From Clostridia bacterium (GTDB lineage: Bacteria; Bacillota; Clostridia; Oscillospirales; Acutalibacteraceae): a stretch of DNA of 64,000 bases. Positions 53,494 to 55,667 of the stretch are shown one piece after another (within the stretch, counting starts at the first letter, position 1; each line of letters opens with the position of its first letter). Below the pieces are notes generated by a model, which saw only the letters and a program-made list of their open reading frames with translations, was not told where the DNA came from and did not search any database. The stretch spans positions 186,001-250,000 of the forward strand of contig JAFZUV010000018.1 in the NCBI GenBank assembly GCA_017618135.1. The letters are read 5' to 3'. The translations under genes were made by a program, and so were the position numbers.

Positions 53494-54375
53494 TTATTTT
53501 TTCCGGAATTTATAGAAACTATAATAATATTTTTTTTCAAAATACCAATAAATGCGCTTGCTGATTGATTTAAATAATACAATTGCGGTTTTGAAAAGTG
53601 CTGATGGATTTTTAGCATAATAAATGATTTTTTCTTTAAATGGTCTTTTTTGTGTAACAAATTGAGATTTATTTTCAAAAAAACCTAAATTGCTAAAATC
53701 ACAATATATTTTTTCTTTAGAAAAGAGTTTCGCATTAGATCTAAGCCATTTTCCTCTATACAAGCCATATCCTGTTTCTATGTTGATATTGTAATTGAAT
53801 ACTGATGTTGAATTACGCATCTGAACAAAAAACTTTTTGTTAATTCCTAATGACCGAAGATTTCCAATTTCTTCAAATTCCCATGGAGATTCAAAGTTTC
53901 TCAGACATTTAATGAGTGTGTTTTTGTCCCAAATGCCAATTTGCAAGCTAAAAGTATATCTGGCACCTGGTTCTCTTTGAACAAAAAAATTATTAATTGG
54001 TACTTGATCGTTCTTTATAACGCCATATCTTTCGAAGCAAATAGAGGCTATGTTATCGTTTTTCATCCATTGAATACAATCAGAAACAATATTTTGTCTA
54101 ACATCAGAAAGCAAGAAAAAATCATCCAGCATTAATATTACAAACCGGCTATCAATTCTTTTTAGGCAACTTTTTAATCGTTTACTCCAAGACCATTTGG
54201 GGTTTGAGTTTATTGTTGTTATATTTATGTTTTTGTCTTTATAATTTTTTGTTTCTGTGTTCAAATAAACGGGATAAGGGCAATCATTCCAATATCTGTT
54301 AAATAGAGTAAAAAAAGGAATCCAAGCATCCTGGTATTTATCACATGAACACACAAGAACAGAACAATCACTCAT
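53494..54375 (-). CDS. Putative glycosyltransferase-like protein of the AT-rich island
   Basis: A 293-residue soluble protein. It opens SVLVCSCDKYQDAWIPFFTLFNRYWNDCPYPVYLNTE and has an acidic metal-like motif FVILMLDDFFLLSD near 75-88, the pattern of GT-A capsular glycosyltransferases that lack the GT2 start. Later aromatic and basic stretches suggest membrane association at the end. It overlaps the GT2 gene upstream by eight bases, so the two are co-translated. Codons are far more A/T-rich than in tuf or the following PBP. The sugar and acceptor cannot be told. Confidence 0.7.
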   Translation of the reverse strand: MSDCSVLVCSCDKYQDAWIPFFTLFNRYWNDCPYPVYLNTETKNYKDKNINITTINSNPKWSWSKRLKSCLKRIDSRFVILMLDDFFLLSDVRQNIVSDCIQWMKNDNIASICFERYGVIKNDQVPINNFFVQREPGARYTFSLQIGIWDKNTLIKCLRNFESPWEFEEIGNLRSLGINKKFFVQMRNSTSVFNYNINIETGYGLYRGKWLRSNAKLFSKEKIYCDFSNLGFFENKSQFVTQKRPFKEKIIYYAKNPSALFKTAIVLFKSISKRIYWYFEKKYYYSFYKFRKK

Positions 54376-55447
54376 CTGTACTCACCCCTATTTTTAAAAA
54401 ATATAAAAGTTTCGTTTTTAAATTAATTATTCTTAGAATTATTTTATATTTTACGATATAATGTATGCGTTTTTGTATGTAATATCGCTTGTTGTAAACG
54501 GTTTTGTTTTTTATAAGATTTTTAATATCATCCGGTATAACAAACGGGCAATATCCACAATCTGAAAGTTGTTTTATATATTTTTTTGATTTAAATATAT
54601 TAAGTTGTGAAATTTTATCATAAGCATAATTAATTCTTGATAATAAATAATTTATTGTTGCTGACTTATTCTTAATTGATTCGTTTTCTGCAAAGTTTTT
54701 CAAATAATCAGCACCGTTTATTATTGAAGATAAATATTCATCAATGTTAACATTATGCATTACGGAATTGCTATGGTTTCTATGGAAATAGAATATATCC
54801 GGATATTCAATATTTACATTACTATATTTGTAATAAATGAAATTAAATATTTGATCCTCGCCATAACTTACATTTGTAAGGAACTTTAGGTTATTATCCA
54901 TAATAATTTTTAATTTAAAAAGCCTATGAGTACAAAATTCATATCTAAATTCGTTATCCTGAAAAAGTTTGCCTGATTCATATGATTTTTTTTCTTCGTT
55001 GGATAGTTCACTTATGAAATAGTATCCCTTAAACAATAAATGGTCACATGACGATTGATCGCATATATTTCTAAGTCGTTTTAGTATATTAATTCCAATA
55101 AAATCATCAGCGTCTACAAACCAGATATAACTCCCTCGTGCTTTATTTATACCGGCATTTCTTGCCGATGAAACGCCGGCGTGTTGCTGATGAATTGCTG
55201 TTATATTATCGAACTTTTCAGCATACTCATCAATGATTTTTCCGCTTTCATCAGTCGAACTGTCATTTATGCAAATGATTTCATATTCATCATAGGATAA
55301 ATCTTGTTTAAGGCAGGAATCGAGGCATTCCGACACATATTTTTCACAATTGTAGACGGGGATAATAATACTTAAAAAAACAGCTGAAGATTTATTGTTT
55401 AACCTTGGTTGTTCTTTCTTTTTAATACTATTATTTTCTCCATGCAT
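54368..55447 (-). CDS. Family 2 glycosyltransferase
   Basis: A 359-residue GT-A enzyme. FLSIIIPVYNCEKYVSECLDSCLKQ (about 24-48) is the nucleotide-sugar strand, and GSYIWFVDADDFI (about 105-117) supplies the DxD metal site. The C-terminal part carries a basic, hydrophobic end without clear full membrane spans. GGGAGG lies 11 bases before the ATG. Its 5' leader is the structured RNA with terminator at 55470-55632, so expression probably depends on readthrough. With the next gene it forms a small surface-polysaccharide module acquired from elsewhere, judged by AT bias. Confidence 0.9.
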   Translation of the reverse strand: MHGENNSIKKKEQPRLNNKSSAVFLSIIIPVYNCEKYVSECLDSCLKQDLSYDEYEIICINDSSTDESGKIIDEYAEKFDNITAIHQQHAGVSSARNAGINKARGSYIWFVDADDFIGINILKRLRNICDQSSCDHLLFKGYYFISELSNEEKKSYESGKLFQDNEFRYEFCTHRLFKLKIIMDNNLKFLTNVSYGEDQIFNFIYYKYSNVNIEYPDIFYFHRNHSNSVMHNVNIDEYLSSIINGADYLKNFAENESIKNKSATINYLLSRINYAYDKISQLNIFKSKKYIKQLSDCGYCPFVIPDDIKNLIKNKTVYNKRYYIQKRIHYIVKYKIILRIINLKTKLLYFLKIGVSTDE

Positions 55448-55469: not shown

Positions 55470-55494
55470 TAAAAAAGCGCAGCAGAGCTGCGCT
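55470..55494 (-). terminator. Intrinsic terminator (attenuator) before the GT2 ribosome site
   Basis: On the minus strand AGCGCAGC (55494-55487), loop TCT, GCTGCGCT (55483-55476), then TTTTTTATTTT. The U-tract ends only a few bases before the GGGAGG site of the GT2 gene. There is no T-tract in the other direction, so it is specific for leftward transcription. Confidence 0.85.
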
Positions 55495-55632
55495 AAAAAA
55501 CATAGGCTCTACTTCGCCAAAAGTACAACATTTCACCTATAGTGTATGCTGAAAATGAGCCATGCATTTTTATCAAGGAGATAAAAACAGCATGCGACAC
55601 TATAGGTGTTTTTATTCAGTTGTACTTTTGGC
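55470..55632 (-). ncRNA. Structured leader RNA with predicted pseudoknot (candidate attenuation/antitermination element)
   Basis: Reading the minus strand from the expected start at 55632: P1 GCCAAAAGUACAAC pairs with GUUGUACUUUUGGC (55619-55632 with 55516-55529, 14 perfect pairs). Inside, P2 CACCUAUAGUGU pairs with ACACUAUAGGUG (55597-55608 with 55534-55545), continuing after a CGC bulge with AUGCUG/CAGCAU (55588-55593 with 55546-55551). P3 UUUUUAUC/GAUAAAAA (55580-55587 with 55567-55574) has the loop UCCUU. The unpaired CAUGGCUC (55557-55564) is complementary to GAGCC-U-AUG (55501-55509) outside P1, a pseudoknot of eight pairs with one bulge. A terminator follows at once. I do not recognise a known riboswitch class. 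It may regulate the GT genes or be released as a roughly 160-nt RNA. Confidence 0.7.
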
Positions 55633-55638
55633 ATTATT

Positions 55639-55667
55639 ATTTTATCAAAGTTAAATTAAATAGTCAA
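55639..55667 (-). promoter_or_regulatory. Near-consensus promoter of the leader RNA / glycosyltransferase operon
   Basis: On the minus strand TTGACT (55662-55667), 17 bases, TAAAAT (55639-55644). The predicted start, seven bases on, is the first base of the P1 stem. Confidence 0.8.

Follow-up and report, generated by a model that had tools for sequence, protein, structure and literature searches.

The window analysed here, a stretch of 64,000 nucleotides, carries on its minus strand a structured leader element followed by a small operon. The first gene of this operon (55447-54368, ATG at 55447) encodes a glycosyltransferase of family 2 (GT2; Pfam Glycos_transf_2, E 1.9e-32), and is preceded by a ribosome binding site, GGGAGG, at 55461-55456. 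The second gene (53494-54375) overlaps the first by 8 nt and has no Pfam match; its position suggests that it may encode a glycan-related enzyme. Leader and operon lie on the strand opposite to fusA/tuf-type genes, which presumably encode EF-G and EF-Tu, as recognised from their own sequence. The segment with which the RNA starts, ahead of the sugar-transferase gene, is 160 bases long.

The promoter of the element consists of a -35 box, TTGACT (55667-55662), a spacer of 17 nt and a -10 box, TAAAAT (55644-55639). Six bases later begins P1, a closing stem of 14 bp (55632-55619 with 55529-55516), which encloses the lower part of P2, with 12 bp (55608-55597 with 55545-55534), and the core hairpin P3, with 8 bp (UUUUUAUC-UCCUU-GAUAAAAA, 55587-55567); all three are evident both in the sequence and in the computed fold. 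An intrinsic terminator, supported by sequence and covariation, comprises a hairpin at 55494-55476 and a T-run (a U-run in the RNA) extending to 55471. An earlier note on this DNA had placed a promoter, stems and a terminator here on the minus strand, and all are present in the sequence. It had also described the enclosed stem as 12 bp plus 6 bp. The 12 bp stand; the upper 6 bp (55593-55588 with 55551-55546) are complementary and are backed by covariation (helices 5 and 6), but fall outside the minimum-energy fold, in which that stretch pairs differently. From 55640 to 55440 (201 nt) the computed folding energy is -70 kcal/mol, whereas shuffled versions average -43.3 (z -6.5) and none of 200 is as stable.

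Two further helices in the leader are indicated by covariation. The first is a pseudoknot between AAAAAUGCAUGGCUC (55571-55557), which overlaps the 3' arm of P3, and GAGCCUAUGUUUUUU (55509-55495); in the window this pairing contains one bulge and one mismatch. The second, absent from the earlier note, is a putative antiterminator, in which AGUAGAGC (55513-55506) would pair with GCUCUGCU (55488-55481), a strand that lies within the terminator hairpin. In the window it is weak, with an isolated-helix energy of -6.2 kcal/mol.

Relatives of the element were detected by several routes. A blastn search returned one second copy in the window's own genome and one copy in a sister genome, both with the same architecture and rewritten stems. 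A third match, L006 (G032:C1), covers the terminator region only and is not a family member; its motif is presumably that of a T-box leader. A pattern for the core, allowing up to 2 mismatches, was found in 20 of 150 genomes of the window's taxonomic family, including the window's own, against 1 of 150 for the reversed pattern. The 32 places found in this way form 30 loci, and the architecture is present at 22 of them; the others (L007, L010, L011, L016, L019, L021, L022 and L025) lack it, with no full-length model match at E <=0.1. A scan of named genomes added 48 stretches, four of which repeat units already collected. Their titles are those of Clostridia-type metagenome-assembled genomes, many from ruminant or other gut sources, with one 'Bacteroides sp.' (L042, JAMPEQ010000005.1). 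This last carries the same unit as G080:C28 of the window's family, and is probably mislabelled or misbinned.

A covariance model was built from 52 members taken from 68 listed units, after setting aside duplicates, pieces at contig ends, wrongly bounded units, false pattern matches and some valid units. The window, itself among the 52 building sequences, scores 83.5 bits. The model finds the element in 54 of 61 genomes of the genus (E 0.01), with up to 14 copies each, and in 70 of 197 genomes of the order, which represent 45 of the 110 genera sampled (E 1e-5). In a phylum-wide sample of 299 genomes (E 1e-5, strict filters), only the window's own genome matches. Since the order yields many matches and the phylum sample only this genome, the RNA family is widely distributed inside a single order, and the model is specific. 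One search of the loci covered 100 of the 137 collected by then, and 60 matches were fetched from the order search. The earlier note had suggested a covariance-model search against Rfam and clostridial genomes; it returned no Rfam family at gathering scores, and revealed compensatory changes in P1, P2 and the pseudoknot.

At gathering scores, Rfam 15 has no match to the family. A permissive search returned ncS54 (E 0.0064), MIR5070 (0.0018), istR (0.0045) and sau-5949 (0.051), among others; these were rejected, as all of them score far below the gathering thresholds and they vary between members. In the literature within reach, which leaves out most subscription journals and bioRxiv preprints, the RNA is not described at the level of titles and the opening of abstracts. 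The structured RNA family is real and widespread, and Rfam has no entry for it.

Covariation was assessed in alignments of 116 members and of 66 order-wide members, one of the latter duplicating a sequence among the 116. The core sequence in the 52- and 116-member alignments was partly selected by the search patterns, and the 66-member alignment derives from a search with the model that was itself built on the 52-member alignment. Among the 116 members, 35 of the 43 pairs of P1, P2, P3 and the terminator show compensatory changes, and 91.9% of cells are paired, against 34-50% when the strands are slid, a figure that leans towards this structure because the alignment was fitted to it. The helices differ in what they contribute: P1 (11 of 12 pairs compensatory, 98.0% paired) and the terminator (8 of 9, 99.7%) vary and stay complementary, and P3 (helix 8; 98.1% paired) is mostly invariant.

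The pseudoknot and the antiterminator are absent from the covariance model. In the 116 members the pseudoknot is paired in 95.1% of cells (slid controls, 33-67%), with compensatory changes at 7 of 14 pairs (shuffles average 4.0, and 2 of 500 reach this number). In the 66 order-wide members it is paired in 92.5% (slid, 34-70%), with compensatory changes at 10 of 14, a number reached by none of 500 shuffles. G-U pairs are frequent, as expected of RNA. The pseudoknot proposed in the earlier note is thus borne out by compensatory changes in both alignments, and is longer than had been stated, at about 14-15 bp. Its A5:U5 portion hardly varies, and covariation therefore barely tests it: among the 116 members A-U is the sole standard pair at all five positions, one of which departs in 7 cells, and the 66 members add a few G-U cells and two G-C cells. 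The U5:A5 portion of P3 is similarly invariant.

For the antiterminator, 91.7% of cells are paired in the 116 members (slid, 11-46%), with compensatory changes at 7 of 11 pairs (shuffle mean 4.8; 12 of 500 as high). In the order-wide set 91.1% are paired (slid, 23-45%). There the paired cells and the score do exceed shuffles; the compensatory pairs (5 of 11; 206 of 500 shuffles as high) and the pair types (115 of 500) do not. When each member's own strand was compared with the strand of one randomly drawn member, its own was better in 74 and worse in 33 cases for the antiterminator, 77 and 30 for the pseudoknot, and 114 and 0 for P1. Median isolated-helix energies are -15.5 kcal/mol for the terminator, -14.7 for the pseudoknot, -12.2 for the antiterminator and -3.6 for P3, and the terminator is stabler than the antiterminator in 103 of 116 members. 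Pseudoknot, core hairpin, antiterminator and terminator compete for shared strands, and are mutually exclusive because they use the same bases, a layout characteristic of switches that attenuate transcription.

The position of the promoter relative to the RNA is fixed. Among the 179 members with 60 nt of upstream sequence, 166 have TAnnnT ending at an offset of exactly 6 nt from P1; at the remaining offsets, examined out to 30 nt, the hexamer occurs in 0-25 members, except offsets 1 (53) and 11 (47). A -35 box with at least 4 of 6 matches, at 16-18 nt from a -10 box lying 5-7 nt before P1, is present in 147 of 179. Given this placement of the -10 box, the 5' end of the RNA is expected to coincide with the first base of P1, position 55632 in the window. 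Sequence comparison shows P1, P2, the pseudoknot, the terminator and the promoter position to be conserved features of the family, and the antiterminator is supported more weakly.

The far end of the unit is also positioned with respect to genes. Of 181 members, 117 have a gene with a ribosome site (ORF of at least 40 amino acids) that begins no more than 60 nt away, and for 98 of these the distance is 15-23 nt. On the opposite strand the corresponding numbers are 4 of 177 and none at 15-23 nt, and at random places on the same strand they are 223 of 1562 (14%) and 2.5%. Most of the units lie in cis in mRNA leaders, as riboswitches do. The earlier description of an undescribed structured leader with a pseudoknot, an attenuator and a riboswitch-like layout agrees with the covariation, the fixed promoter position, the gene adjacency and the lack of any Rfam match at gathering score.

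Downstream genes were classified in two sets, one of 38 proteins (39 selected, 56 listed) and one of 47 of 58 proteins, with the first 25 families listed. BspA-type leucine-rich repeat proteins are the commonest family (10 and 5), followed by others that include collagen-like (2 and 2), dockerin (2 and 3) and zinc-ribbon proteins. S-layer homology occurs in 3 proteins of the second set and is not among the 25 families listed for the first; AMP-binding proteins (2) were seen in the second set and EcoRI-type methylases (2) in the first. At L036 and L080, EcoRI-type adenine methylases stand directly behind units. A link to defence genes was considered and rejected, the 38 proteins having given six PADLOC families with one or two members each (MTase_II 2, KwaA 2). 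By a crude hydrophobicity rule, secreted-like N termini occur in 52 of 110 unit-adjacent proteins and in 70 of the 377 ORFs found elsewhere at these loci, two protein sets with different length limits. The glycosyltransferase gene that the earlier note had placed behind the leader holds for the window, but not as a typical partner, with a single glycosyltransferase among the 38 proteins of the first set. The downstream genes are diverse and do not converge on one pathway that would suggest a ligand. Surface and secreted proteins appear in large number to be under the control of this leader class, an apparently undescribed, large family that includes its own promoter and stands before many unrelated, often surface or secreted, protein genes.

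The element is likely to be a self-contained, cis-acting transcription attenuator with its own sigma-A-type promoter. The transcript would begin at the first base of P1, and P1, P2 and P3 would fold during transcription. The next segment, GAGCnAUGCGUUUUU, would then have two alternative partners. If it pairs with AAAAAUGCAUGCUC, the 3' half of the core hairpin, a toehold-type strand exchange would open that hairpin, the terminator would form and transcription would stop. If it is kept from AAAAAUGCAUGCUC, it would instead pair with the 5' half of the terminator as an antiterminator, and RNA polymerase would enter the gene. A ligand or factor would set the exchange; we infer both that the exchange occurs in the cell and that the pseudoknot is the OFF state. 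Because the pseudoknot partner is transcribed first, default termination via the pseudoknot is the simplest reading, and the isolated-helix energies are compatible with it. Read-through would then require a signal that either shields the core hairpin or prevents pseudoknot pairing. The opposite polarity, in which the signal would stabilise the pseudoknot and shut the gene off, is nearly as likely. The competing helices are open to direct tests by point mutation. With regard to a translated leader peptide, there is an AUG at the pseudoknot strand, but only 62 of 108 members keep its A.

A second, longer subclass bears on this mechanism. It makes up most of the 22 long members of about 190-220 nt, which were chosen by length from the genus-wide model search, leaving out the intermediate L118; L138-L157 and L119 belong to this subclass of about 200 nt, which is set apart by enclosing the A5 segment in a hairpin. 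In 21 of the 22, that segment lies within a 7-bp hairpin (GAAUUUG...CAAAUUC type), with an open 9-nt loop in 17. L126 is long but has a core of another kind. The -10 box stands exactly 6 nt before P1 in 18 of 22. Members of the second subclass pair a different strand, typically GGAGUUUGCGUUUUU. The long duplex is found in all 22 long members, whose strands were picked by expressions that already demand A- and U-runs; in 20 it comprises 15 bp without bulge or mismatch, the exceptions being L126 (a bulge) and L142 (a mismatch). The mean duplex energy of the long members is -17.7 with their own partner and -10.8 with the class I partner, and the class I 5' strand averages -12.6 with long-member partners against -14.6 with its own. 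The invasion of the 3' half of the core hairpin by the strand ahead of the terminator is thus preserved although the sequence has changed, and this speaks strongly for the importance of strand exchange. Ligase-like genes that carry TGYPSIDKPWLKY close to their start stand behind L150, L152 and L157, and similar genes behind L194 and L200.

In its predicted expression platform the family resembles riboswitches with terminators: it has a 5' leader, exclusive antiterminator and terminator helices, a pseudoknot and a ribosome site right behind. The conserved and, by base sharing, mutually exclusive platform is of the kind that riboswitches have, its antiterminator part being weaker across the order. 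It differs in that the RNA start is fixed at the closing stem, the promoter lies inside the conserved unit and tandem units are complete. A start at the closing stem, a built-in promoter, and a promoter and terminator for each tandem unit are unusual for riboswitches. The RNA is probably a cis-acting transcription switch that works in a riboswitch-like manner and may belong among the riboswitches. It is possible, at somewhat less than an even chance, that it constitutes an orphan riboswitch class of one clostridial order (as sampled), in which portable promoter-sensor-attenuator cassettes respond to one common signal through strand exchange among the core hairpin, the pseudoknot and the antiterminator, and in this way coordinate a large and rapidly changing repertoire of accessory proteins, which are often secreted or located at the surface. 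With units in 45 of the 110 genera sampled from a single order and no entry in Rfam, such a leader class would amount to a major level of regulation in gut and rumen Clostridia that has gone unrecognised.

Surface-protein genes often stand behind c-di-GMP riboswitches, as they do here, but no unit matches Rfam at gathering scores. Matches to GGDEF are lacking in four of ten genomes (G007, G019, G035 and G231, with completeness of only 87% for G007 and 84% for G019), and were found in the other six, five of them over the cut-off and the window's genome included. Since the four genomes without a match carry 8-14 units, c-di-GMP is unlikely to be the general ligand.

A version of the attenuator explanation has a protein, either an RNA-binding regulator or a NusG-type antiterminator, setting the switch; this appears less likely than not. 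It would suit the very diverse downstream genes, as for a global regulator, and the small number of strongly conserved unpaired bases, which amount to AAUA after P1 and a C and an A in the linker between P1 and the pseudoknot. Two known systems had been raised in the earlier note, and neither reading is supported. PMC2864571 describes the EAR/epsC leader (RF01735) as a structured RNA with a pseudoknot before surface-polysaccharide genes. The present leader is like it in these respects and unlike it in the range of its downstream genes; RF01735 gives no match at gathering score, nor is it among the weak matches at E up to 5. The leaders of the LoaP-controlled dfn and mln operons likewise combine a leader RNA with an intrinsic terminator that is read through on demand. 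LoaP binds a UNCG-type hairpin, according to PMC12691694, whereas the loops of the present core hairpin are, by eye, of other kinds, with UUCG appearing only in terminator loops. Among ten genomes with 4-14 model matches each, none has LoaP over the NF033641 cut-off, and NusG-like proteins gave a single match in nine and none in one.

Units without an adjoining gene raise a different possibility, namely that the element is a stable small RNA, or an array of small RNAs, acting in trans, with the terminator as its normal 3' end and the genes reached by incidental read-through. At some loci, tandem arrays of two to four complete units occur, each retaining its promoter and terminator, and at L027, L076 and L121 there is mostly no room for a gene between them. 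L121 (G007:C26:100-5000) contains at least four promoter-RNA-terminator units, with nearly identical promoter spacers and strongly different RNA bodies in which the pairings are kept. Among 116 units, 74 are followed by an adjacent gene, 15 by another unit and 1 by a contig end; the remaining 26 lack a gene in the next 60 nt, although several have one further on. The antiterminator is paired in 91.4% of cells in the gene-adjacent units, 92.5% in the gene-less and 92.9% in the array-internal units. This equal upkeep is the chief finding left unaccounted for by the attenuator model, and the small-RNA explanation stays alive because structure is equally kept without an adjoining gene. A promoter of its own, a start fixed at P1 (166 of 179) and a terminator of its own would also be natural for it. 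It is nevertheless improbable: the 117 of 181 units that have a start preceded by a ribosome site no more than 60 nt away, in most cases at 15-23 nt, are far above the controls, and conservation of the antiterminator would have no obvious role in a free small RNA. If instead the riboswitch reading is true, cassettes in tandem would provide additional outputs or make the response sharper. Why a leader switch carries its own promoter is a question raised by the fixed RNA start together with the tandem arrays.

A mobile inverted-repeat element (MITE) carrying a promoter, which up to 14 copies per genome before unrelated genes and one copy pair in G006 with 89% identity might suggest, is very improbable, as the arms differ yet remain complementary, the spacing between the end of the unit and the gene start is fixed, and, for 24 members from four genomes, the median best identity is 65% within the genome against 69% in others (a much larger pool, which favours the latter figure), with the closest relative in another genome for 18, in the same genome for 5 and tied for 1, so that a recent burst is disfavoured.

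Carriage by phages or plasmids was also considered and rejected: plasmid sequences gave no match to the family, phage-type matches are few, and one of them looks chromosomal. Viral contigs have no match to the pattern of the window's own P2, and two of them share one identical unit, truncated at the contig end. Two records filed as phage contain one unit each, L231 and L232; for L232, the unit and the next gene were inspected. L231 (MT835845.1) belongs to an unverified bacteriophage record whose ORFs look, by eye, like those of a bacterial chromosome, and its unit precedes a lipoprotein-like gene.
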